NCBI RefSeq assembly: GCF_009856825.1
Contig: NZ_WVTD01000003.1
Coordinates: 1 to 64,000, forward strand
DNA length: 64,000 nt
Direction of reading: 5' to 3'
Source: Novosphingobium silvae
GTDB lineage: Bacteria > Pseudomonadota > Alphaproteobacteria > Sphingomonadales > Sphingomonadaceae
Position 1 is the stretch's first letter, and each line of letters starts with the position of its first letter. This document shows, piece after piece, positions 2,363-23,801 of this stretch. A model generated the notes under the pieces. That model was given only the letters and a program-made list of their open reading frames with translations. It had not been told where the DNA came from and did not search any database. The position numbers were made by a program, and so were the translations under genes.

Positions 2363-2692
2363 TCAATCCTCCGGGGCAATGGTGACGCGCAGGCCGTTCA
2401 GCGCTGGGGTGAGGGCGATCTGGCACGATAGGCGCGAGTGCGCGCCGCGATGGTCGGAGGAATCGAGCAGGTCGTTCTCGTCCTCTCCCGGTGCGCCGGC
2501 CGCGTCCGCCCAATCCTCGGCCACGAAGACATGGCAGGTGGCGCAGGAGCAGCAACCCCCGCAGAGCGCGAGCAATTCGTCGAAGCCATTGTCGCGGATC
2601 GCCTCCATCACGGTGGCGCCCTCTCTGGCCTCGATCGCGGTTTCGTGTCCCGAGCGGTCGACAACTATCAGCTTCGGCACCAGGCTATCCAC
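2363..2692 (-). CDS. [2Fe-2S] ferredoxin (adrenodoxin type)
   Basis: Small 109-residue electron carrier. The cluster ligands are Cys44, Cys50, Cys53 ([15 protein letters not shown]) and Cys90 (RLSCQI), the pattern of adrenodoxin/putidaredoxin-like ferredoxins rather than plant-type or Rieske ones. It sits between pcaJ and pcaD in the benzoate operon. Since no BenC fusion reductase is present, this protein plus the FAD reductase at 1-382 most likely forms the electron-transfer chain of the benzoate dioxygenase. That partnership is inferred from the operon, not proven by the sequence. An extra cysteine (Cys48) lies inside the cluster loop. Confidence 0.9.
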
Positions 2693-2695
2693 CTC

Positions 2696-3346
2696 CTACG
2701 CCATTTCCAGCCGATGGGCGAAAGGCGCGCCGGTTTTGGCGGCCACCTCGTCGAGCGTCACGCCGGGGGCGAGTTCGACGAGCGTGAGGCCGCCTTGCTT
2801 GCGGTCGATCGCGAAGACGGCAAGGTCGCTGACGATCATGTCGACCACGCGCTTGCCGGTCAGCGGCAGGGTGCAGGCGGGGAGGATCTTGGGATCGCCG
2901 TGCTTGGATACGTGGTCCATCACCACGATCACTTTCTTCACGCCGGCGACAAGGTCCATCGCCCCGCCCATGCCCTTCACCATCTTGCCCGGGATCGTCC
3001 AGTTGGCGAGGTCGCCCTCGGCCGAGACTTCCATCGCGCCCAGCACGGCCATGTCGATATGGCCGCCGCGGATCATCGCAAAGCTGTCCGCGCTGGAGAA
3101 GAAGCTGGAGGTGGGCAGCGCGGTGATCGTCTGCTTGCCCGCGTTGATGAGGTCGGGATCGACGTCCTCATCGTAAGGGAACGGGCCGATGCCGAGCATG
3201 CCGTTCTCGCTCTGCAGCGTGACCTTGATGCCTTCGGGCACATGGTTCGCGACCAGCGTGGGGATGCCGATGCCGAGGTTCACGTAGTACCCGTCGCGCA
3301 GTTCCTTCGCGGCGCGGGCGGCCATTTCGTCGCGGGTCCAGCTCAT
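2696..3346 (-). CDS. pcaJ: 3-oxoadipate CoA-transferase subunit B
   Basis: Beta subunit (216 residues) of the succinyl-CoA:3-oxoadipate CoA-transferase, which activates 3-oxoadipate with CoA taken from succinyl-CoA. The [12 protein letters not shown] segment carries the catalytic glutamate (Glu47) that forms the enzyme-CoA thioester in class I CoA-transferases. Its start overlaps the stop of pcaI by TGATG, as is usual for subunits made in equal amounts. The PcaJ assignment over the related acetoacetate transferase (ScoB) rests mainly on the catechol pathway context. Confidence 0.93.
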
Positions 3347-4053
3347 CAGACGGTCTCCCTCTCGCGGACAGTGCGCTTCTCGATGCGCTTCTCGTTGATG
3401 GTGGAGAGCACCACGCGATCGACATAGATGCCCGGCGTGTGGATGCAGTCAGGATCGAAGGTGCCGGCGGGGACGATCTCTTCCACCTCGGCCACTGTGA
3501 CCTTGCCCGCCGTCGCCATGTTCGGATTGAAGTTGCGCGCGGTCTTGCGGAACATCAGGTTGCCTTCCTCGTCCGCGCGCCAGGCCTTGATAATCGACAG
3601 GTCGGCCCGAAGCCAGGTTTCGCGCACGTATTCCTCGCCTTCGAACACTTCTACCGGCTTTCCTTCGGCAACCACGGTGCCGACGCCCGTCTTGGTGTAG
3701 AACGCCGGAATGCCCGCCCCGCCGGCGCGAATACGCTCGGCCAGCGTGCCCTGCGGGTTGAGTTCAAGTTCGAGTTCGCCCGAGAGGTACTGGCTTTCGA
3801 ACAGCTTGTTCTCGCCCACATAGGACGAGATCATCTTGCGCACCTGCCGGCTCTCCAGCAGCATCCACAGGCCGAACCCGTCTGCGCCCGCGTTGTTGGA
3901 GATAACCGTCAGGTCCCGCACACCCGCCGCGCGGATTTCGGGGATCAGGCTTTCGGGATTGCCCGAGAGGCCGAAGCCGCCCGACATGATCGTCATGCCG
4001 TCGAACAGCAGGCCTTCGAGGGCGACCCGTGGGCTGTCGTAAATCTTGGACAT
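3346..4053 (-). CDS. pcaI: 3-oxoadipate CoA-transferase subunit A
   Basis: Alpha subunit (235 residues) partnering PcaJ. The N-terminal [10 protein letters not shown] CoA-binding motif and the [12 protein letters not shown] segment are characteristic. The start is the ATG at 4053 ([14 protein letters not shown]); the frame stays open further upstream but runs into benD. It lies 14 bases downstream of benD. Together PcaIJ channel the ring-cleavage product into CoA metabolism before PcaF thiolysis. Confidence 0.93.
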
Positions 4054-4067
4054 CTTATGTCTCCGTC

Positions 4068-4859
4068 TTACCCGAGATCGCCGCCGGCAACGGGGAGTAC
4101 CGTTCCGGTCACGTAGCTGGCCTCGTCCGAGGCGAGGAACAGGATCGGGGCGATCTGCTCTTCGAGCGTTCCGTAGCGCTTGAAGAAGGCGGAGTCGGTG
4201 ACTTGCGCGACCGCCTCGGCCATCCATGCCTGCTCTGCCGCATTGTCGCCTTCGGCGTTCCGGGCAACACGGCGGGGCGGAGCGCTGGTGCCGCCCGGCG
4301 CCGTCGCGACGACACGAATGCCTGCCTCGGCATATTCCATGGCCAGGCTCTGCGTGAGGCCGTTGATCCCGCCCTTGGCCGCCGAATAAGGCACCCGGCG
4401 GATACCGCGCGTGGCATTGGATGACAGGTTCACGATCGTTCCCGCGCCTTGCTCCAGCATGGTCGGCAGCACCGCGTGGCAGCAGTAGAGGGTGGGCATC
4501 AGCGAGCGTCGGATTTCCGCATCGATCTGCGCCGGCTCGAACTCGGCATAGGGTCGCATCCGGATCGCGCCGCCCACATTGTTGATCAGGATATCGATGC
4601 GGCCGAAGGATGCGACGGCCCTGGCCATCGCCTCGGCCGCGCCTTCATAAGTCTCGAGATCGCAGCAGACGGACATTGCCTTTCCGCCTTCGGCGACGAT
4701 GGCCTGTTCCACCTCGCTCACGAACTCGGCGCGGTCGACCAGCACCACGATGGCACCTTCGGCAGCCGCACGGGTCGCGACACCCGCCCCGATGCCCTGC
4801 GCGGCGCCGGTCACGACCATGACTTTGCCTGCGAAACGTGCCTTGAAGATCATCCCCAC
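4068..4859 (-). CDS. benD: 1,6-dihydroxycyclohexa-2,4-diene-1-carboxylate dehydrogenase
   Basis: Short-chain dehydrogenase of 263 residues that oxidises and decarboxylates the benzoate cis-diol to catechol with NAD+. It shows the Rossmann motif TGAAQGIG (17-24), the NNVGG structural motif, Ser146/147 and the catalytic pair Tyr158-Lys162 in PYSAAKGG. The opening KVMVVTGAAQGIG is typical of BenD/XylL. It follows benB by 4 bases, the standard benABD order. Confidence 0.93.
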   Translation of the reverse strand: MGMIFKARFAGKVMVVTGAAQGIGAGVATRAAAEGAIVVLVDRAEFVSEVEQAIVAEGGKAMSVCCDLETYEGAAEAMARAVASFGRIDILINNVGGAIRMRPYAEFEPAQIDAEIRRSLMPTLYCCHAVLPTMLEQGAGTIVNLSSNATRGIRRVPYSAAKGGINGLTQSLAMEYAEAGIRVVATAPGGTSAPPRRVARNAEGDNAAEQAWMAEAVAQVTDSAFFKRYGTLEEQIAPILFLASDEASYVTGTVLPVAGGDLG

Positions 4860-4863
4860 CTCC

Positions 4864-5388
4864 TCAGACGTGGTAGATGTCGATGACCTGATGAATGTAG
4901 TCGTCCTTCAGGACGATCTTCTTCTTCAGGATCGTGGGCGCATCGCCAGAAGTATCCAGCGTCAGGAACGTGGTTCCGAAGAACTGCTGCGTCTGCTGGT
5001 AGCGGTGGCTGAGCGTGTGCCAGTTGTAGCGCAAGTCCACCTGCCCTTCCCGGCTCTCCAGCACTTCGACATTGCCGATGAAGTGCGCAGATCGCGGCTC
5101 GGGCGTAGAGGCGGAGGACCGCTCGGTGTTGAGGCGGTAGACGCGGTCTTCCAGCCCCTGCCGGTTGGCGTAGTAGATCAGCGAAATCTCGCTCTGCGGG
5201 TCGGTGCAGAGCTCGTCATCGTCGGTCCACGCGGGCATCCAGTATTCGACATTCTGGGAATAGCATTCCAGCCATTCGTCGAACCGCCGATCGTCCAGCA
5301 GGCGCGCCTCGCGGTAGAGGAAAGCGCAGATGTCGCGGTACGAGAGAGCCTCGGATCGGGCCTCGCGCGTTATGTCGAGCGTGCTCAT
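4864..5388 (-). CDS. benB: Benzoate 1,2-dioxygenase, small (beta) subunit
   Basis: Structural beta subunit of the ring-hydroxylating dioxygenase, 174 residues with the cystatin-like/SnoaL fold signature: FLYREARLLDDRRFDEWL near the N-terminus and the EPRSAHFIGNV and LRYNWHTLSHR strands. The start ATG at 5388 overlaps the benA stop (ATGA), so alpha and beta subunits are translationally coupled. It carries no metal; it stabilises the alpha3beta3 hexamer. Confidence 0.93.
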   Translation of the reverse strand: MSTLDITREARSEALSYRDICAFLYREARLLDDRRFDEWLECYSQNVEYWMPAWTDDDELCTDPQSEISLIYYANRQGLEDRVYRLNTERSSASTPEPRSAHFIGNVEVLESREGQVDLRYNWHTLSHRYQQTQQFFGTTFLTLDTSGDAPTILKKKIVLKDDYIHQVIDIYHV

Positions 5389-6743
5389 TCCGCCGCCTCC
5401 ATCATCGGCGGCTGATTGGCCGCGTCCTTGGCCAGCCCGTCGAGCATGATCTGCGCCCAGAACTCGTGCTGGCGCACGAACAGGCCCTCGTCCTCGCTGC
5501 GCTCGCTGGAGAGCAGCGGGTTCATGCCCATCGCTGAGGCATTGGCATCCGGGCCGTGGATCCAGCGCTTGGCGCCGCGGCTGAGGTCGTTCCACAGTTC
5601 GCCCGCGCCTTCGTAGGCCTTCTGGCAGGACCGGAACTCCTCCAGATCGTCGGGCGTGCCCATGCCGGTGACGTTGAAGAAATCCTCGTACTGGCGGATG
5701 CGGTGGGCGCGGTTCTCGGCGCTCTCGCCCCTCGGGGCGTAGCAGTAGATCGTCACCTCGGTGGTGTGCACGTCGATCGGGCGGACGACGCGAATCTGGG
5801 TGGAGAACTGGTCCATCAGGAACACGTTGGGGTAGAGCGCGAGGTTGCGCGTCTGCTCGATGATGAACCTGGCCCGGTCCTCGCCCAGCCGGGCGTCAAG
5901 GTCCGGCTTTTGATTCCAGATCGGCCGCACTTCGGGATTGATCACTTGCGTCCAGAGCAGGATGTGACCGTGCTCGAAGCCGTAGACGCCGCTGGCGGGC
6001 GCCTTGGACCAGCCGTTGGCGTCCACCGCCTTGGTGCCGCCTTCGGCGCGGCGGCCCATGGTGGATTGGTAGTTCTCATGAACGGAGCTGACGTGATAGC
6101 CGTCGCAGCCGTTCTCCATCTGCATCTTCCAGTTGCCGTCGAAGGTATAGGTGGAATTGCCGGTCAGCACTTCCAACCCCTCGGGCGCCTGATCGACCAT
6201 CTGGTCGATGATTACCCTGGTTTCGCCAAGATGCTCTTTCAGCGGCAGCACGTCGTGGTTCAGCGAACCAAACACGAAGCCGCGATAGCTCTCCACGCGA
6301 ACGCGGGTGAGGTCGTGCGAGCCTTCGTGGTCGAAGCTGTCCGGATAGGCGCCGGTGCTGGCGTCCTTGGCCTTGAGCAGCTTGCCGTCGGTCTTGAAGC
6401 TCCAACCGTGGAAGGGGCAGACGAACAGCGGCTGGTTGCCGCGCTTGCGACGGCACAGCTTGGCGCCGCGATGCGCGCAGGCATTTACGACGCAGTTGAA
6501 GCCGCCGTCCTTGGCACGGGTCAGGATCACGGGCGTGCGCCCGATCCAGGTCGTGAAGTAGTCGTTCTTCTTCGGAAGCTGGCTTTCGTGGGCAAGGTAC
6601 ACCCAGTTGCTTTCGAAGATGTACTTCATTTCCAGCTCGAACAGCGCCGGGTCGGTGAAGACGTCCCGGCGGCAGCGGAACTCTCCGGTTTCGACGTCAT
6701 CGACGACGGCCGTCGAGATCCGGTGCATGAGGCGTTCGTACAT
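5385..6743 (-). CDS. benA: Benzoate 1,2-dioxygenase, large (alpha) subunit
   Basis: Catalytic subunit that dihydroxylates benzoate to the 1,2-cis-diol. The Rieske cluster ligands are Cys89/His91 (NACAHRGAKLC) and Cys109/His112 (FVCPFHGW); the mononuclear iron site shows the D-x2-H-x4-H pattern as Asp214, His217 and His222 (CDGYHVSSVHENY). Length is 452 residues from the ATG at 6743, which I prefer to the ATG at 6761 because GGAGACAGG lies at a good distance before it. BenA is favoured over XylX (toluate) only by similarity as I recall it and by the ortho-cleavage genes around it. Confidence 0.93.
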   Translation of the reverse strand: MYERLMHRISTAVVDDVETGEFRCRRDVFTDPALFELEMKYIFESNWVYLAHESQLPKKNDYFTTWIGRTPVILTRAKDGGFNCVVNACAHRGAKLCRRKRGNQPLFVCPFHGWSFKTDGKLLKAKDASTGAYPDSFDHEGSHDLTRVRVESYRGFVFGSLNHDVLPLKEHLGETRVIIDQMVDQAPEGLEVLTGNSTYTFDGNWKMQMENGCDGYHVSSVHENYQSTMGRRAEGGTKAVDANGWSKAPASGVYGFEHGHILLWTQVINPEVRPIWNQKPDLDARLGEDRARFIIEQTRNLALYPNVFLMDQFSTQIRVVRPIDVHTTEVTIYCYAPRGESAENRAHRIRQYEDFFNVTGMGTPDDLEEFRSCQKAYEGAGELWNDLSRGAKRWIHGPDANASAMGMNPLLSSERSEDEGLFVRQHEFWAQIMLDGLAKDAANQPPMMEAAE

Positions 6744-14498: not shown

Positions 14499-15512
14499 TC
14501 AGGGCTGCGGCACCACAGCGTCCATGATCGTGAGGTGCTCCAGCGGTTCAGCGCCCACACGCGACGCCGTCACGAGGATGGTCGAGCCCACGCGCAACTG
14601 CGCCTTGACCAGTTGGTAGAACCGGCGCGGCATGCGCACGCGGTTGATCACCGCCTCATCTACTTCGCGCGCCTCGTCTTCCGCATGGCCGTTCATGCCG
14701 ACGTAGACCCACTGCTGCTTACCGTTCTTCATGGTCAGGGTAATGACGTGCGAGCCGGTGTCGTCGTCGTCGATCCGGGCGGCGCTGCGGCCGATCTCCA
14801 CCCCGCCCCGCACGACGACTATGCGCTGGTCCGTCTTGGACACGATGATGCTGAGCGGGCCGGTTGGTGCCAGTTGCGGAGTCCAGCGATACTCGGCCCC
14901 GTGAAGCGGCCCGGCGGCGTTCGCCTGGCCTTTGGCGTCGAACGGGGCGAGCAGGCTGTTGTCGCTCGTCCGCACGTGGCTGGCGGCGTCACCATCGACC
15001 ACAACCGTGACACCGAGGCTGGTAATCGCGAAAAGCTCTCGCGCGAACCCATAGGGCAAGTGGATGCATCCGTGAGTCTCGGGATAGCCCGGAAGGCCTC
15101 CGGCGTGCAGCGCGACACCGTCCCACGTCAGCCGCTGCTGGAACGGCATCAGCGCGTTGTTGTACGTGCTGGAACGGTGCTTCGCGTCCTTCTGGAGAAC
15201 CGTGAACACGCCGGTCGGCGTTTCATGGCCCGCTTTCCCGCTGGATATGGTCGTGGCCGCGATGCGCACTCCGTTGCGATAGATGAGCGCGATCTGGCGG
15301 GAGAGATCGACGTAGATGAGGACCGGGCCGCTGGGAGAGACCTCGGGTGCCCAGACCCATTCGCCGGGCTTGAGATGCTCTATCTTGCGCGCAAACTCCG
15401 GAGGCGAACTCGCCTTTGCGCCCTGCGCCAAGGCTGGAGGCGAGGCGATGAGTGCGAAGCCTGCTACGCACCATGGCAAATGCCGTAGTGCCGACAGGCT
15501 CAACGCGGGCAT
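14499..15512 (-). CDS. L,D-transpeptidase (YkuD domain), secreted
   Basis: Periplasmic peptidoglycan cross-linking enzyme family. A signal peptide (hydrophobic run ending ASPPALAQG) is followed by a YkuD domain with His-Gly-Cys-Ile-His (ETHGCIHLPYGF), Cys149 being the nucleophile counted from the ATG at 15512. That start has AAGGA about 10 bases upstream; an in-frame start at 15557 would lengthen the peptide by 15 residues. The second half (from about residue 190) is a further domain I do not recognise. It overlaps the end of the small upstream gene by 13 bases and is last of a four-gene minus-strand set. Confidence 0.85.
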   Translation of the reverse strand: MPALSLSALRHLPWCVAGFALIASPPALAQGAKASSPPEFARKIEHLKPGEWVWAPEVSPSGPVLIYVDLSRQIALIYRNGVRIAATTISSGKAGHETPTGVFTVLQKDAKHRSSTYNNALMPFQQRLTWDGVALHAGGLPGYPETHGCIHLPYGFARELFAITSLGVTVVVDGDAASHVRTSDNSLLAPFDAKGQANAAGPLHGAEYRWTPQLAPTGPLSIIVSKTDQRIVVVRGGVEIGRSAARIDDDDTGSHVITLTMKNGKQQWVYVGMNGHAEDEAREVDEAVINRVRMPRRFYQLVKAQLRVGSTILVTASRVGAEPLEHLTIMDAVVPQP

Positions 15513-15871
15513 CCCACCGGATCCTTGCGCCTGCAGGCCGGATTTGTGCGTTCCCATTCGGCCCTGGCTGCCTCGTAGGCCGCCACTTGTTCATCGTGCT
15601 GGCGCATCGCCTCAGCAAAGGCGGCATCGTCACGCGCTTTTCGGGCATTCATGGTGGCGATGGCAGCGGCGTGCGCAGCCACCTGCTGGCGGTGGTCCTC
15701 CACATCGCGGCGTGCGCGGGCAGCCTGTTCCTCGTTCAGAGCCTTGCGCCGGGCCTCGGGGTCGCCTGCCTCGGGCGCACTGCGCTGCGAGACTTCGTCC
15801 TCGGCACGGACAGTCGCAGGTATCGATGCCGCAAGAGCAGCCAGCGCGAGCAAGGTACGGATATCAGGCAT
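15500..15871 (-). CDS. Small secreted coiled-coil protein of unknown function
   Basis: A 123-residue protein with a clear signal peptide (MPDIRTLLALAALAASIPATVRA, cleavage expected before EDEV). A highly charged, Ala/Arg/Gln-rich helical stretch follows that should form a coiled coil (residues about 40-110), and it ends in a cysteine-containing tail (NPACRRKDPVGCPR). The two cysteines could form a disulfide. I do not recognise a family. AGGA precedes the ATG. It lies 27 bases after the stress-protein gene and overlaps the L,D-transpeptidase start, which suggests a cell-envelope job together with that enzyme. Confidence 0.7.
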   Translation of the reverse strand: MPDIRTLLALAALAASIPATVRAEDEVSQRSAPEAGDPEARRKALNEEQAARARRDVEDHRQQVAAHAAAIATMNARKARDDAAFAEAMRQHDEQVAAYEAARAEWERTNPACRRKDPVGCPR

Positions 15872-15898: not shown

Positions 15899-16723
15899 TC
15901 AGGCATTCAGGCCATCGCGCACGACGAGGATGTCGTGCGAGATGGCAGTCAGAAGGTCGGAGGCACGGCTGCCCAGCAGCACTTGGGCAATGCTGCCCCA
16001 GCCATGCGAGCCGACCACCGCGACAGGGCTGCGGTAGAGCTTGGCGAACTTCTCGATCGCACCTGCGGGATCGCTTTCCACGCTGTGGTGCGTGATGCGG
16101 CCCAGCCAGGGGGCGAGCGCCGGTGACGCCAGAAAACGCGCCATTTCCTCGTGCGACCACTGCTTGCCAAGTTCCAGGGATGCATCTTCGCCCAGCCGCC
16201 TCGGAAAAGGCCTGCCGAAGGCGTTGACCAGTGTGACCGGCACGTCGAACAGCTCCGCAGCGGCAATCACCGCTCGGGCCGATCGCTCGGAGAAATCCGT
16301 GCCGACAACGATACCATCGTAGGGCAGGCGCGGCCGCTCCTTCACCACCAGCACCGGTGCCTTTGCCCGCCGGACGAGATAGTCCACTGCCGTCCCGAGG
16401 AAGAAGTCGGACACGTGGTTGTAACGCGCCGCCCCGACGACGACGAGCGCGGCGTGCTGTGCCTCCACAACATCCGCCAATACCTGCGGCGCCGAACCAC
16501 GCTCGATCACCAGTTCGAAAGGCACGCTGAAGTCTTCGACCATCCCTTCGAGTGCCTCGCGTGCGCGCTGCATCTGTTTCCGGAGGTCCATATCGGCGCG
16601 CTCTTCCAATGCGTGGACGACGACGAGCCGCGTCCCGCGCTGCTCGGCCAGCATCACCGCGCGATCGAGCGGGCGGTCACTGCGGGCGGTCAGGTCGGTC
16701 GCTACGACAATCGGTGCGGTCAT
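15899..16723 (-). CDS. Universal stress protein, tandem Usp domains
   Basis: Two UspA-like alpha/beta domains in 274 residues. The first opens with IVVATDLTARSDRPLDRA and ends with VDYLVRRAKAPVLVV; the second opens with GIVVGTDFSERSARAVIAAA and ends with GSRASDLLTAISHDILVV. The ends resemble the G-x9-G-S-type nucleotide-binding loop of ATP-binding Usps, although the glycines are partly replaced. It is 37 bases after the P-type ATPase gene and co-directional. In related bacteria such tandem Usps accompany low-oxygen or stress regulons. Confidence 0.88.
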   Translation of the reverse strand: MTAPIVVATDLTARSDRPLDRAVMLAEQRGTRLVVVHALEERADMDLRKQMQRAREALEGMVEDFSVPFELVIERGSAPQVLADVVEAQHAALVVVGAARYNHVSDFFLGTAVDYLVRRAKAPVLVVKERPRLPYDGIVVGTDFSERSARAVIAAAELFDVPVTLVNAFGRPFPRRLGEDASLELGKQWSHEEMARFLASPALAPWLGRITHHSVESDPAGAIEKFAKLYRSPVAVVGSHGWGSIAQVLLGSRASDLLTAISHDILVVRDGLNA

Positions 16724-16760: not shown

Positions 16761-19487
16761 TCAGGCATGCAGTTCCTCGAACCAGTCGAGGCGCTTCATT
16801 ACCCATTTCTCCAGTTCGAGTACGACGAAGAGCACCATGCCAAGAAGGATCAGGATGATCCCGTCCAGTAACGACACCGGCTGCGTACCGAAGATGTCGT
16901 GCATCACCGGCAGGTAAGTGAAAGCCAGTTGCGCGAGGAGCACTGCGCCCACGGCCAGCAGAACCGCTCTCGTACCCAGCGCACCGCGCAGGGTAAGCGA
17001 TCGCATGTGCAGATAGCGTACGTTGAAGAGGTAGAATATCTCCGCCACGACCAGCATGTTCACGACCAGCGTTCGCGCCGTCGCAATGTCCTCTCCACGT
17101 GCCTGCGCCACGAAGAAGACCGCCAGCATCAGCACCGTGAACAGGATCGATACGAAGATCACCCGCCACAGCAGGAAAGGCGATAGCAGCGAGGCGTTCG
17201 CCCGCCGCGGAGGGCGCTGCATCACTTCGCTCTCGGGCGGCTCGAAGGCGAGCACCAGCCCCAGCGTCACCGTGGTGACAAGGTTGATCCAGAGGATCTG
17301 CGTCGCCGTCATCGGCAGTGTGAAGCCCAGGAGGATGGCCAGCACCATCAGCATCGCCTCGCCGCCGTTGGTCGGCAGGGTCCAGGCGATCACCTTGCGC
17401 AGGTTGTCGTATACGGTGCGTCCTTCGTGCACGGCCGCGACGATCGAGGCGAAGTTGTCGTCCAGCAGCACCATCTGCGAGGCTTCGCGCGCCGCCTCGG
17501 TCCCTGCAAGGCCCATGGCGGTGCCTACATCCGCCTGCTTGAGTGAAGGGGCATCGTTCACCCCGTCACCGGTCATCGCCACGATCGCGCCGCGCGCCTG
17601 CAGCGCACGTACGATGCGCAGCTTGTGTTCCGGGCTTGCGCGGGCGAAGACGCTGACGCCGCCTACCACCTCCTCAAGTTCCGCGTCGCTCAGACTTTCA
17701 AGCTCCGCCCCGGTCATGGCCACCGGATCATCCGCAAGATCGAGCTGGCGAGCGATGGCGCGCGCTGTCTCGATGTGATCGCCGGTGATCATCTTCACAG
17801 CGATGCCGGCGCTGCGGCACTCGGCGATCGCCTGGCGAGCCTCGTCACGCGGAGGATCGATGAAGCCCATCAGGCCAAGCATCGTCAGCCCTTCAAGGTC
17901 CTCCACCCGCAGGCGTTCCCGGGGCTCCAGCCGCATCATGCCGAAGCCGAGCAGGCGCTCACCCAGCCGTGCTGCCTTGCCGGACAACATGTCCCAGCGC
18001 GCCGGATCGTCCTGCGGCCCGGCGAGTGCCAGCACCGCCTCGGGCGCTCCCTTCACGAAGACCACGTGCTCTCCGTCCGGCCCTCGGTGCAGCGTCGCCA
18101 TGTAGCGATAGGCCGCATCGAACGGGATCTCGTCCACCCTTGGCCATTCGACCGAAAGGTGGACGTGGTCCAGCCCCGCTTTCATGCCCAACGCGAGAAG
18201 CGCGCCTTCCATCGGATCGCCGGTGACCGACCATTCCCCCGCTTCCTCGGCCAGTCGAGCATCGTTGCAGAGCATGCCGCAACGCAGGATCGGAGCCGCC
18301 TCCATAATCGCAGCGGCGTCGTCGATGCCCTCCTCGGTGGCGCCCTCCTGAGTAATGGCGCCCTGCGGCGCATAGCCCGAGCCCGCGACCTCCAGCGAGC
18401 GACTGGCCGTAAAGACGTGCCGTACGGTCATCTCGTTGCGGGTGAGCGTGCCGGTCTTGTCGGTGCAGATGACCGAAGTTGCGCCCAGCGTTTCGACCGC
18501 AGGAAGCTTGCGGATGACCGCCTTGCGCGCCGCCATGCGCCTGACACCTATGGCCAGGGTGATGGTGATGACCGCAGGCAGACCCTCGGGGATGGCGCCC
18601 GCCGCCACGGCGACGACGGCGATTAGGGCATCATCCCAGACGAAGCCCCTGACCAGCACGGCAAAGGCGAACAGCAGGATCGAGGCACCCAGGATCGTGA
18701 AGGTTAACTGGTGCGAGAAGCGGTTGATCTGCCGGATCAGCGGAGTGACCAGCACCGGCACTGCCTGCAGCATTCCGCTGATACGACCGATCTCCGTTCC
18801 CGCACCCGTGGCGACAACCACGCCCGTCGCCTGTCCCTTGGCGACCAGCGTGCCCGAGAATGCGAGCGAGGTCCGGTCTCCCAGCGGTGCATCCGAGGCG
18901 ACGGCGTCTTCCTGCTTTTCGGCGGCGACGGATTCGCCGGTAAGCGCCGCTTCCTCTATCGCCAGTCCCCGTGCCCTCAGCAGCCTGAGGTCGGCCGGCA
19001 CCCGGTCGCCCGGCTCCAGCAGGACTATGTCGCCGGGGACAAGATCGGTCACATCCAGCGACTGCCTGCGCCCTTCACGCTGCACCACCGCATGGGCCGA
19101 GATCAGCGAGCGCATGCCGTTCAGCGATTCTTCCGCCTTTCCCTCCTGCACGAAGCCCACGATGGCGTTCACGATCACCACGGCGAGAATGACGATGGCA
19201 TCGACTGCGTGGGACAGTGCCACCGCCGCGATGGCGGCTGCCAGCAGGAAGTAGATCAGCGGGTTGTGGAACTGCGCCAGGAAGCGCCGCAAGGGGTGGA
19301 CCCGCGCTTCTTCAGGCAGCGCATTCGGCCCGTACCGTTCGAGCCTGCGGGCCGCTTCAGCGTCGGAAAGCCCTGCCTTCGTGACGGCCAGCGCGGCGAG
19401 AACCTCGGCCGATGAGATTGCATGCCAGGGAGTGTCCGCCGGCAATTCGGGCGATGACGACCGGGGGAGGTCGGCGGATCGGGTCAT
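16761..19487 (-). CDS. P-type cation-transporting ATPase (P2 class)
   Basis: Inner-membrane ATPase of 908 residues, complete. It has an N-terminal cation-ATPase segment, the actuator motif TGES (183-186), the membrane motif PEGLP (300-304), the phosphorylation site Asp343 in CTDKTGTLTR, the hinge MTGDGVNDAP and a C-terminal helical bundle. PEGLP and the overall plan place it with Ca2+/Na+/K+-type (P2) pumps rather than heavy-metal P1B pumps; no N-terminal metal-binding domain is present. The transported ion cannot be read from the sequence with confidence. It heads the set ATPase > Usp > small secreted protein > L,D-transpeptidase. Confidence 0.92.
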   Translation of the reverse strand: MTRSADLPRSSSPELPADTPWHAISSAEVLAALAVTKAGLSDAEAARRLERYGPNALPEEARVHPLRRFLAQFHNPLIYFLLAAAIAAVALSHAVDAIVILAVVIVNAIVGFVQEGKAEESLNGMRSLISAHAVVQREGRRQSLDVTDLVPGDIVLLEPGDRVPADLRLLRARGLAIEEAALTGESVAAEKQEDAVASDAPLGDRTSLAFSGTLVAKGQATGVVVATGAGTEIGRISGMLQAVPVLVTPLIRQINRFSHQLTFTILGASILLFAFAVLVRGFVWDDALIAVVAVAAGAIPEGLPAVITITLAIGVRRMAARKAVIRKLPAVETLGATSVICTDKTGTLTRNEMTVRHVFTASRSLEVAGSGYAPQGAITQEGATEEGIDDAAAIMEAAPILRCGMLCNDARLAEEAGEWSVTGDPMEGALLALGMKAGLDHVHLSVEWPRVDEIPFDAAYRYMATLHRGPDGEHVVFVKGAPEAVLALAGPQDDPARWDMLSGKAARLGERLLGFGMMRLEPRERLRVEDLEGLTMLGLMGFIDPPRDEARQAIAECRSAGIAVKMITGDHIETARAIARQLDLADDPVAMTGAELESLSDAELEEVVGGVSVFARASPEHKLRIVRALQARGAIVAMTGDGVNDAPSLKQADVGTAMGLAGTEAAREASQMVLLDDNFASIVAAVHEGRTVYDNLRKVIAWTLPTNGGEAMLMVLAILLGFTLPMTATQILWINLVTTVTLGLVLAFEPPESEVMQRPPRRANASLLSPFLLWRVIFVSILFTVLMLAVFFVAQARGEDIATARTLVVNMLVVAEIFYLFNVRYLHMRSLTLRGALGTRAVLLAVGAVLLAQLAFTYLPVMHDIFGTQPVSLLDGIILILLGMVLFVVLELEKWVMKRLDWFEELHA

Positions 19488-19967: not shown

Positions 19968-20832
19968 ATGACCGAGGCGACCGACCATCTGCTTGCGCGG
20001 TGCAGCCGGATTTCGCCGGTATCCACCGCCGTCGTACATCCCGTCACCGCCATCGCCATGGAAGCCGCCGCCGATGCGACCGCGCGCGGGCTGATCGATC
20101 CCGTACTGATCGGGCCGCGTCGGCGGATCGAGGATGCGATCGATCAGGCGGTGCTTGCCGTCACTCAATGGAACATCATCGACACCGAGCACAGCCACGA
20201 AGCTGCCGCGCATGCCGCAATGCTGGCCGGTACGGGCAAAGTTGGCGCGATCATGAAGGGGTCGCTTCATAGCGACGAACTGCTCGGCGCTATCCTCAAG
20301 CCCGAAGCCCTTCATCATCACCGACGCCGCCGTCAACATCGCGCCCGACCTTTCCGCCAAGGCGGACATCGTCCAAAGCGCGGTGAACCTGTGGCGCGTG
20401 CTGTTCGGCGGCGAAGAGATGCCCAAGGTCGCCGTGCTCGCCGCCGTGGAGACGGTGAACCCGCGCATGCAGGCGACGCTCGATGCCGCCGCGCTGTGCA
20501 AGATGGCCGACCGGGGGCAGATCACCGGCTGCGTGATCGACGGCCCGCTCGCCTTCGACAACGCGGTGTCCAGCGAGGCTGCGCGCGAAAAGGGGATCGT
20601 CTCTTCCGTTGCCGGTAACGCCGACATCCTCCTGGTGCCCGACATCGAGGCGGGCAACATGCTGGCCAAGCAACTGAGCTTCCTCGGCGGGGCGGAAGCT
20701 GCCGGGATCGTGCTGGGCGCGCGGGTACCGGTCCTACTGACCAGCCGCGCCGACAGCGAACGGGCGCGGCTGCTGTCCTGCGCCATCGCCGCGCTCATGG
20801 CGCAGGCGCGCGCTTCGGGGGAAATTCTTTGA
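19968..20832 (+). pseudogene. pta: Phosphate acetyltransferase, broken by deletion and frameshift
   Basis: The reading frame from ATG 19968 encodes a normal N-terminal half of a PTA/PTB-family enzyme (VHPVTAIAMEAA, LIDPVLIGP, MKGSLHSDELLGAIL). It leaves frame near 20305, after which the family sequence continues one frame over (KPFIITDAAVNIAPDLSAK, then LCKMADRGQITG and LEAGNMLAKQLSFLGGAEAA) to the TGA at 20832. The conserved block of about 20 residues expected between the halves (GLRT..RRISHVF...PGYP in homologs as I recall them) is absent. Two copies of AAGCCC (20298-20303 and 20305-20310) mark the junction, as a slippage deletion would leave. The frame-1 product would end at 20618 as a 216-residue chimera. 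An assembly error is possible, but a simple base-call error would not remove the conserved block. Confidence 0.75.
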
Positions 20833-21959
20833 CCGCAACTCCGGCAATCGCCACACTCAACACCGGATCTTCCAGCCTCAAATTCCGCGTCTTCGCCCGC
20901 GACGGACTCGAGAGGCTGATGGCAGGCAAGGTCACCGGCATCGGCACCGACTGCCGCCTTGAGGCCAGGGTCATCGAAACCGGGGCGACCATATCCCTTC
21001 CCCTGTCCGGTGCCGACCAGGAGGCCGCGCTCGCCGCCGTCATCGCCTGCATCGACGATCATGACGACGGATGGCGGATCGACGCGTTCGCTCACCGCAT
21101 AGTCCACGGCGGCGCCAGCTTTACCGGGCCGGTAATAGTAACGCCCGAGACCCTTGCCGAGCTCGATGCGCTCTGCCCATTGGCGCCGCTGCACCAACCC
21201 TACAACCTTGCCGGCATCGCCGCATCACGCCGCCTTGCCCCACGCGCGATCGACGTCGCCTGCTTCGACACCGCATTCCACGCCGGGCACTCCGAACTGG
21301 TCCACAGCTTCGCCCTGCCCGCAGCCATGCGGAAGGCCGGCGTGCGGCGCTACGGCTTCCACGGCATTTCCTATGAATGGATCGCCCGCGTGCTGGCTGA
21401 ACAGCGCCCCGATCTTGCGCAGGGGCGGGTCGTCGCCGCGCACCTCGGCAACGGCGCCAGCCTCTGCGCGCTGCAGCATGGCCGCAGCATCGACACGACG
21501 ATGGGGATGAGCGCGCTCGACGGACTGCCGATGGGCAGCCGCAGCGGTGCGCTGGATGCGGGCGCCGTCACCTACATGATGCGCCGCTTCGGTTTCGACG
21601 CCGATGCGCTCGACCGCATGCTTTACGAGGAATCTGGCTTGAAGGGCCTGTCCGGCCTCACCAACGATGTCGCAACGCTGGTCGCCAGCGAAGATCCACA
21701 GGCCGCCTTCGCGCTAGACTACTTCACGTACCACGTCGCCCAGTATGTCGGCGCGATGGCGGTGGCGATGGGCGGGATCGACGCTCTCGTCTTCACTGGC
21801 GGCATCGGTGAGAATGCCCCCGGCCTGCGCATCGCCATCCGCGACCGGCTGGGCTTCCTCGGCTCGGTAGAGAGCCTTGTCATCCCTGCCAACGAAGAGC
21901 GCATGATGGCGATCCATGCCTGCGCCTTGCTGGAAGCGCGAACGGAGGCGGCGGCATGA
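20829..21959 (+). CDS. ackA: Acetate kinase
   Basis: ASKHA-fold kinase of 376 residues interconverting acetyl phosphate + ADP and acetate + ATP. The opening TLNTGSSSLKFRVF carries the catalytic Asn; HRIVHGGASFTGP, FHGISYEWIA, HLGNGASLCA and FTGGIGENAP are the further signatures. The start is a TTG at 20829 overlapping the pta stop (TTGA), with GGGGGAAA upstream, so it depends on translation of the preceding frame. The gene is intact although its partner pta is broken, so acetyl phosphate would have to come from another Pta or another route. Confidence 0.93.
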   Translation: MTATPAIATLNTGSSSLKFRVFARDGLERLMAGKVTGIGTDCRLEARVIETGATISLPLSGADQEAALAAVIACIDDHDDGWRIDAFAHRIVHGGASFTGPVIVTPETLAELDALCPLAPLHQPYNLAGIAASRRLAPRAIDVACFDTAFHAGHSELVHSFALPAAMRKAGVRRYGFHGISYEWIARVLAEQRPDLAQGRVVAAHLGNGASLCALQHGRSIDTTMGMSALDGLPMGSRSGALDAGAVTYMMRRFGFDADALDRMLYEESGLKGLSGLTNDVATLVASEDPQAAFALDYFTYHVAQYVGAMAVAMGGIDALVFTGGIGENAPGLRIAIRDRLGFLGSVESLVIPANEERMMAIHACALLEARTEAAA

Positions 21960-22702
21960 AGGGCCTCATCGTCGGCGTCGCAAACGACCAGTCCTTGGCT
22001 TGGGGCTGTGCCCGCGCGCTGCGCGATCAAGGCGCCGCGCTGGCGCTGACCTATCTTGGCGACAAGGCCCGTCCGCACGTGGAGCCGCTGGCCCGCGCGG
22101 TAGAGGCGCCGATCTTCCTTCCGCTCGACGTGACGCGGCCCGAACAGATCGACACCCTGTTCGATACCGTTGCGCGCGAGTGGGGCAGCCTCGATTTCCT
22201 GCTCCATTCCATCGCCTTCGCGCCGAAGGAGGATCTGCACGGCCGCGTGCTGGACTCATCCGCACAGGGCTTCGCGACTGCCATGGACGTCTCGTGCCAT
22301 TCGCTGATCCGGCTTGCTGCACGGGCGGCGCCGCTGATGAAGAACGGCGGGTCGATCCTGACGCTCAGCTTCTATGGCTCGGAAAAGGTCGTTCCCGGGT
22401 ATGGGATCATGGGGCCGGTCAAGGCCGCGCTGGAGGCGAGCGTACGCTACCTCGCGGCCGACCTCGGCCCTTCGAGGATACGGGTGAATGCGCTGTCCAC
22501 CGGGCCGGTACGCACCCGCGCGGCCTCGGGCCTGTCGCACTTCGATGCTCTCATGATGAGAGCGGTGGAAACCGCGCCGCTGCACCAACTGGTCACCATC
22601 GAACAGGTCGGCGACATGGCAGCCTTCCTCCTCTCCCCCCGGGCGCCGACGATCACCGGCCAGACGATTTACGTCGATGCGGGGTACAACGTCACGGGCT
22701 GA
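21956..22702 (+). CDS. Enoyl-[acyl-carrier-protein] reductase, FabI type
   Basis: A 248-residue FabI-like SDR. The N-terminus GLIVGVANDQSLAWGCARAL is the FabI cofactor motif; LLHSIAFAPKEDL and the catalytic Tyr149-x6-Lys156 (PGYGIMGPVKAALE) follow, and the end RAPTITGQTIYVDAGYNVTG is typical. It reduces trans-2-enoyl-ACP with NAD(P)H. It overlaps the ackA stop by ATGA and is therefore part of the acetate-kinase operon, so it is more likely an accessory copy than the main fatty-acid enzyme. Its 3' end overlaps the convergent gene by 11 bases. Confidence 0.88.
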   Translation: MKGLIVGVANDQSLAWGCARALRDQGAALALTYLGDKARPHVEPLARAVEAPIFLPLDVTRPEQIDTLFDTVAREWGSLDFLLHSIAFAPKEDLHGRVLDSSAQGFATAMDVSCHSLIRLAARAAPLMKNGGSILTLSFYGSEKVVPGYGIMGPVKAALEASVRYLAADLGPSRIRVNALSTGPVRTRAASGLSHFDALMMRAVETAPLHQLVTIEQVGDMAAFLLSPRAPTITGQTIYVDAGYNVTG

Positions 22703-23801
22703 TGGCTGAAGATCCGCCCCAGCTTAGCTGGTAGATCACCCGGAAGCCGTCATGGTCCGACAGTTGCGGGCTACCGGGCGATCCGTCGAACATCGCCTCG
22801 ACCCGCCGGGGCACCACCTGCACGCGCGCGCCGGATGCGTAGAACTGCAAGTCCTGCGTATCCATCCAGGGCTCGTCCCCGTCCCACGACATGCGCACGT
22901 CGCACCGCTTGGATACGGCGCAGTATTCGTGGACCAGCGTGAACGGAATGCGGGACTTGAACTCCGCAAAGCGCGCGTCGGAATGGCGCATGTTGAAATC
23001 ACCGCCCAGCACCAGCGGCACTCCGGCGGTGTGATAGTGATTGATGAAAAGTCCCAGTTCCTCGCTCTGGTAGCGGTGCGCTGCCAAGTGACGCTCCAGC
23101 CGCACTTTCGAGGCCTTCTGCGAATTCATGTGAGTGTCGATGATGTCGATCGGCTCCGGCACCCCGGGTATGGCGACGCGCACCATCACCACGCCCTTGT
23201 TGGAAAGGCAGTCGAACCCGGCGCAGGTCTTGCGCGAATAGGCGTCTCTTCGGGTCAGCGTGATTGGCCAGCGGCTGGCGACTACGAGGCCCGAGCCGAC
23301 GAACCGGAAGCCGATCTCGCCCTTGGTCGGGCGGACGCGACCTTCCCGGTGCGCGTCGGCGGCCCGGTCCACGCTCGAAAAAGTACGTCCGGGGCCGCCT
23401 ACCATGTACGGATAGCCGCTTGCCTTCACCGCCCGTATCGCAGCGGCCGAGAACACTTCCTGGAACAGCACGACGTCGGGCGCCTGACCGCGGGCGCCGA
23501 GATCGTGCAGTACCCGGCCGATCTGAGCCAAGTGCGGCGCGCGTCCACTGCGAGCGGGCCATTGCAGGCCCTCCACGTTGAAGGTCAGCACGTCCAGGGT
23601 CGCGCTGCCCCTTGCCGCATCACCGGTCACCGGAGCAGCAGCGTGCGGTACATTGCCCGGTCCGGACGAGTAGGACGCCGGAAATCCCGCGCAACCGGCC
23701 AACGCCGGAAGCATGGTCAGGCCCGCAAGGGCCGGAACCATGCTCCGCCAAATCACGCGTGTTCCCTGCAGCGAGACCGGCATCGCGCTGCTGTCCCTCA
23801 C
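22692..23801 (-). CDS. Endonuclease/exonuclease/phosphatase-family lipoprotein
   Basis: Secreted protein with the EEP (DNase I-like/sphingomyelinase) fold: VLTFNVEGLQWP (Asn), VVLFQEVFSA (metal-binding Glu), DIIDTHMNSQ (His), LVLGGDFNMRHSD (Asp/Asn) and PQLSDHDGFRV (catalytic Asp-His). The N-terminus ends in a lipobox, TMLPALAGC, so it should be anchored to a membrane. I keep the GTG at 23801, which overlaps the dehydrogenase stop (GTGA); ATG 23783 is an alternative. Whether it acts on lipids, inositol phosphates or nucleic acid cannot be told. Confidence 0.82.
   Translation of the reverse strand: MRDSSAMPVSLQGTRVIWRSMVPALAGLTMLPALAGCAGFPASYSSGPGNVPHAAAPVTGDAARGSATLDVLTFNVEGLQWPARSGRAPHLAQIGRVLHDLGARGQAPDVVLFQEVFSAAAIRAVKASGYPYMVGGPGRTFSSVDRAADAHREGRVRPTKGEIGFRFVGSGLVVASRWPITLTRRDAYSRKTCAGFDCLSNKGVVMVRVAIPGVPEPIDIIDTHMNSQKASKVRLERHLAAHRYQSEELGLFINHYHTAGVPLVLGGDFNMRHSDARFAEFKSRIPFTLVHEYCAVSKRCDVRMSWDGDEPWMDTQDLQFYASGARVQVVPRRVEAMFDGSPGSPQLSDHDGFRVIYQLSWGGSSAISP

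Follow-up and report, generated by a model that had tools for sequence, protein, structure and literature searches.

Phosphotransacetylase (Pta) and acetate kinase (AckA) are the two enzymes by which acetate and acetyl-CoA are converted into one another. In Pta of M. thermophila, S309, R310 and D316 are given as catalytic residues in PMC10194888. The PTA_PTB domain of Pta is shared with hybrid malic enzymes (MaeB), two of which are encoded in the window genome and which differ from Pta by the missing Ser-Arg pair. The PTA-like domain of MaeB is described in PMC7902834 as a sensor of acetyl-CoA in which critical catalytic residues appear to be missing.

The nearest counterpart of the locus studied here is the pta-ackA-fabI operon of Novosphingobium resinovorum VKM B-1172 (locus L025; the same place is L132 in genome G028, which has the same Pta protein). 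Its gene order and overlapping ackA start recur in the window, i.e. the whole 64,000-nucleotide stretch of DNA analysed here, and its AckA and FabI are 85% and 87.5% identical to the window proteins. By contrast, its pta is intact, and an alpha/beta-hydrolase-type gene (DUF3141, PHB_depo_C) lies upstream where the window has a divergent P-type ATPase. The window pta belongs to the PTA_PTB family (PF01515; NF008852/NF006045 type), as both of its halves match and the C-terminal half keeps the Ser-Arg pair, but it differs by the loss of 65 bp, its two frames and a missing block around GLRTERRxSH.

The broken pta gene and its neighbours

Translation of the window placed pta at 19968–20832, split over two frames (Table 1). 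Over positions 10–114 of 315, the N-terminal half matched NF008852 (E 1.6e-32, 112.8 bits against a cut-off of 413); across roughly this half it is 72–75% identical to the closest intact Pta. The C-terminal half matched positions 137–308 of the same model (291.2 bits), exceeded the NF006045 cut-off on its own (307.1 vs 282) and was 86% identical to N. resinovorum Pta. Positions 115–136 of NF008852 were covered by neither half, and the block of type GLRTxxRxSHxxxM (variants allowed) that lies between the Pta halves was absent. The frame of the ATG holds to about 20297; from about 20298 on, and as far as 20832, the +1 frame takes over, bearing out the original observation that the halves are in different frames. 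No continuous frame spans the whole PTA_PTB domain: frame 1 stays open to the TAA at 20616–20618 and gives a 216-aa ORF that is out of frame after residue 110, with a wrong C-terminus. The catalytic Ser-Arg pair is kept in the C-terminal half, according to an alignment comparison covering the Ser-Arg column.

Table 1. Features of the pta-ackA-fabI region and its upstream neighbours (window coordinates)
Feature	Position	Strand	Evidence and remarks
L,D-transpeptidase (YkuD); counterpart adjoins ackA in G107	14499..15557	-	PF03734; G107 DNA match
Universal stress protein (usp)	15899..16723	-	PF00582
Cation-transporting P-type ATPase, divergent neighbour	16761..19487	-	PF00122, PF00689, PF00690
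pta N-terminal half, read from ATG 19968	19968..20297	+	Translation, ends ...DELLGAIL; NF008852 match
65-bp deletion junction, AAGCCC at 20298 and 20305	20298..20310	+	One 65-base gap vs L025 and L005
pta C-terminal half, +1 frame, own stop	20305..20832 (+1 frame from about 20298)	+	Translation; PF01515 positions 153–319
Premature TAA for a ribosome from the pta ATG	20616..20618	+	ORF 19968–20618, 216 aa; the ackA start follows about 210 nt later
ackA, acetate kinase, 376 aa, TTG start	20829..21959	+	PF00871, E 6.8e-90
fabI-type enoyl-ACP reductase, 248 aa, overlaps ackA end	21956..22702	+	NF005717, E 1.1e-121, 405.5 bits vs cut-off 337

Alignment with the closest intact homologue (L025) and with L005, from G028, revealed a single gap at about 20300–20305 of exactly 65 bases (21 codons plus 2 bases), close to the 60 or so guessed beforehand; this size was measured against another species, about 17% different in DNA, in place of the strain's own undeleted sequence. 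The junction had been described as a deletion between two AAGCCC repeats. Both copies do exist, at 20298 and 20305, and among the 19 plus-strand copies in the window they form the only pair within 10 bases. When slippage deletes the DNA between two repeats, a single copy stays behind; since both survive here, the visible copies cannot be taken simply as the recombining pair. In the sequence of N. resinovorum, the deletion ends have one base in common for certain. If the Glu codon that was lost read GAA here (N. resinovorum has GAG), five bases, AAGCC, would be common to both ends, and the copy at 20305 would be the merged one. A microhomology deletion is therefore a plausible origin of the 65-bp loss, though not simply in the way first described, and these bases inside pta would most likely have been lost through an ordinary short-deletion event.

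We surveyed the best 80 loci of 169 ackA relatives. Some pta match was found by tblastn in 67 of them, of the same type (>50% identity) in 53, and 13 had no match. The 14 weaker matches, one of which (L088) carries an internal stop, represent other Pta types and were left out of the count. The 53 comparable genes, which include some near-duplicates (e.g. L048, L050 and L051) and three genes cut by a contig start (L071, L072 and L074), all lie beside ackA in one stretch with no stop, and all keep the block, with some residues varying. The relatives thus do not lack the block in frame, and the reported disappearance of a conserved stretch of some 20 residues holds, with about 21 residues absent from the window gene. 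In a genus-wide search with an intact Pta query, 56 strong single-stretch matches were obtained in 45 of 194 other genomes (E up to 1.5e-69), and the window genome was the only one with a Pta match in two separate pieces. An intact orthologue in relatives and a disabling lesion in the window gene are therefore both present.

Several side observations emerged from this search. One of the 56 matches (G114:C11:34406-35305) contains one TAG and is possibly broken. Some are MaoC-Pta fusions, as scanned in one case (L007 940-2427, G014) where MaoC precedes PTA_PTB, and many genus Ptas lie in open frames of about 460–590 aa, against 347 for N. resinovorum. Unlike the fusion scanned in L007, the Pta of the window lineage is a stand-alone protein.

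Downstream of the break, ackA and fabI are both full-length open frames, as had been claimed. AckA carries a full-length acetate kinase domain (PF00871, positions 4–351 of 392, 301.9 bits vs a cut-off of 22), the only match to this family in the genome; against TIGR00016 (E 1.1e-86) it scored 291.1 bits, marginally below the cut-off of 293.4. The ackA TTG overlaps the pta stop as TTGA at 20829–20832, in agreement with the earlier reading. In 44 of the 53 relatives, too, an in-frame start codon lies at -4 to the pta stop, so that the overlap is not peculiar to this strain. A start codon at -4 to the upstream stop is the usual pattern for coupled translation. An effect of the pta break on ackA translation is plausible: ackA would lose its coupling with pta, leading either to less translation or to independent initiation. 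Some initiation independent of the pta start is possible, because in-frame starts occur within the C-terminal half itself (e.g. ATG 20419 behind GGCGAAGAG) and GGGGGA precedes the ackA TTG.

Age of the break

Substitution rates were compared in codon alignments of the window and N. resinovorum genes against four outgroups (L026, L029, L027 and L030). Among outgroup-invariant columns, the window gene had changed at 11 of 55 in the N-terminal half and 3 of 129 in the C-terminal half, and N. resinovorum at 10 of 55 and 5 of 129. Counting against the majority of outgroups gave 5 changes in the window vs 3 in N. resinovorum for the N-terminal half, and 4 vs 6 for the C-terminal half. For the N-terminal half, dN to the four outgroups was 0.343, 0.340, 0.389 and 0.434 in the window and 0.335, 0.282, 0.370 and 0.395 in N. 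resinovorum, i.e. slightly higher in the window in all four comparisons, a pattern that would be consistent with an earlier break in this half. For the C-terminal half, the window values (0.128, 0.112, 0.122 and 0.124) exceeded those of N. resinovorum (0.139, 0.127, 0.127 and 0.116) in one comparison out of four. Between the two species, dS reached 0.46 in the C-terminal half and 0.85 in the N-terminal half. The translations of the two halves showed neither a further stop nor another frame break.

As the halves show little or no excess amino-acid change and no further lesion, the break appears to be recent, that is, young relative to the split from N. resinovorum. Three alternatives had been proposed for an acetate kinase operon deprived of its own Pta, namely another Pta, acetyl phosphate from another route, or very recent decay; the relative rates, which display no clear excess, fit the last of these best. 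The window ackA and fabI bear no sign of decay (dN/dS to N. resinovorum of about 0.15 and 0.10).

Replacement enzymes and acetate kinase partners across the genus

Profile searches located PF01515 at three places in the window genome, the broken pta and two malic enzymes (malic domains by Pfam). Both malic-enzyme domains were considered as a second Pta and rejected: at the column where the aligned Ptas carry Ser-Arg, Mae1 has Thr-Pro and Mae2 has Pro-Met (G107_Mae1 and G028_Mae1, antisense frames, were left out). The suggestion of another Pta was thus not supported, and the claim that the operon has lost its own Pta stands, with no other Pta in the genome outside the malic enzymes. The proposal of another route to acetyl phosphate likewise found no support among the enzymes covered: neither phosphoketolase (XFP_N) nor PduL (PTAC) was found in the window genome, and Xsc did not exceed its cut-off in any of the five genomes searched, the window genome included. 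Weaker Xsc matches occurred in all five (best in the window genome, 286.9 bits vs a cut-off of 676.4) and are probably other thiamine-diphosphate enzymes. This search covered phosphoketolase, Xsc and, in the window genome, PduL.

Across the genus, ackA (PF00871) was detected in 53 of 195 genomes. By hand comparison, 43 of these had a strong unsplit Pta match and nine had none; the one remaining is the window genome. Seven of the nine encode a phosphoketolase (Xfp), six by XFP_N and the seventh (G161) counted as such since the first gene on its contig, next to ackA, is a truncated phosphoketolase gene, although the XFP_N search was negative. The other two, G107 (100% complete) and G152 (78% complete; its ackA contains a single TAG), had neither Pta nor phosphoketolase in the available sequence. 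The Xfp-ackA pair resembles the window genome in having an acetate kinase without Pta, but no phosphoketolase was found in the latter.

Phosphoketolase seems to be swapped in as the partner of acetate kinase at Pta-less ackA loci of several genus members, as at L130 (2-937), and of Rhizobium sp. RM (L036), where Xfp (2417-4834) lies directly upstream of ackA (5001-6092); the latter was for this reason not counted as a further partnerless ackA. At the same locus, a short ORF (1907-2416) looks by eye like the start of a P-type ATPase fused to its end, with a weak ATPase C-terminal match, as if the neighbouring gene had undergone an in-frame internal deletion. Croceicoccus mobilis (L037), whose ackA-fabI has no adjoining pta, was likewise not counted as a third loss, as a second PTA_PTB match (475-aa open frame) lies elsewhere in its genome. 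Other irregular genes were an ackA in two pieces (G198:C626:6818-7937) and one with a single TAG (G152:C267:2778-3704), both possibly broken, and a phosphoketolase match in two neighbouring pieces (G143:C1:3029099-3030156) beside other single-stretch matches there.

G107 provides a second ackA-fabI pair of the same ackA type (AckA 80% and FabI 85% identical to the window proteins) which, like that of the window, has neither a working Pta nor Xfp. Its DNA matches the window at 14499-15428 and 15506-15667, then at 20842-22706, the last of these being preceded by about 45 bases that have no match; since only those bases separate the L,D-transpeptidase gene from ackA, usp, the ATPase and pta are absent altogether, whereas the window pta is present and broken. 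The fabI of G107 (L126, G107:C1, 5236-5979, minus strand) also differs, its codon 211 being an in-frame TAG. Of the two PTA_PTB matches in G107, one falls in an open frame of 762 aa and the other in one of 1068 aa, lengths as malic enzymes would have. The G107 ackA exhibits no surplus of changes (12 among 166 outgroup-invariant columns vs 12 and 13 in the two others). The AckA of N. resinovorum, with its intact pta, is nearer to the window (dN 0.100) than that of G107 (0.146), which makes two separate pta losses the simplest history suggested by these sequences. The operon thus seems to be decaying independently in two species.

Fate of the operon and possible role of a lone acetate kinase

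Taken together, the locus is very probably a recently formed pta pseudogene in an accessory pta-ackA-fabI operon of Novosphingobium. Frameshifting could not restore the missing block, which is deleted from the sequence, and no active Pta would be made. That the two halves might be translated separately and then combine into an active split enzyme is hardly credible: both stay open and the C-terminal one has in-frame starts, but the residues absent from both include a block kept in every comparable gene and also, by alignment, in the solved phosphate butyryltransferase 7vg9, and the N-terminal fragment runs out of frame. An artefact, with 65 bases dropped from the draft of a strain whose pta is whole, is improbable. 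The assembly is indeed a draft (4.57 Mb in 64 contigs), the junction holds a 7-base near-tandem AAGCCCG AAGCCC, and both halves otherwise look selected. However, 65 bases are far beyond a base-calling error, adjoining ackA and fabI contain no frame break, and an assembly made with usual word lengths does not collapse at repeats as short as 5–6 bases.

A further proposal concerns the consequence of the break and is compatible with a pseudogene: AckA would be kept on purpose, free of Pta, to make acetyl phosphate (as a phosphate or acetyl donor) from acetate and ATP, pta being unneeded and hence lost. Two species of one ackA lineage devoid of a working Pta keep an open ackA, with no Xfp and no relaxed change in either. 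Against this, the nonsense codon in the G107 fabI looks like operon decay, ackA may simply have had too little time to decay, and the frequency of phosphoketolase in the other Pta-less genomes indicates that AckA is normally partnered. We regard deliberate retention as unlikely, although a Pta-independent role is possible and AckA could, from its sequences, still be under selection without Pta. With the pseudogene reading, the operon would be dispensable and on its way out, as apparently in G107, and AckA would now do either little or form acetyl phosphate from acetate and ATP.

The broader idea that one Novosphingobium lineage uses AckA independently of both Pta and phosphoketolase, with pta lost twice and a constrained ackA as the acetyl phosphate source, is doubtful on present evidence. 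If true, a lone AckA fed by acetate and ATP would supply acetyl phosphate for signalling or protein acetylation. Our literature search joining acetate kinase, phosphotransacetylase and phosphoketolase with Novosphingobium returned nothing.

As gene decay, the case is ordinary, its small surprise being that the searches turned up nothing to replace the lost Pta. For annotation, it cautions that ackA alone does not amount to a working Pta-AckA pathway, and that the PTA domains of malic enzymes should not be counted as Pta. It also offers a natural experiment, as no partner was found for the acetate kinase of two related species, and most of the relatives with ackA encode Pta or phosphoketolase. 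Should these two species express ackA, the strains would be a clean test of the effect of a lone acetate kinase on acetyl phosphate.
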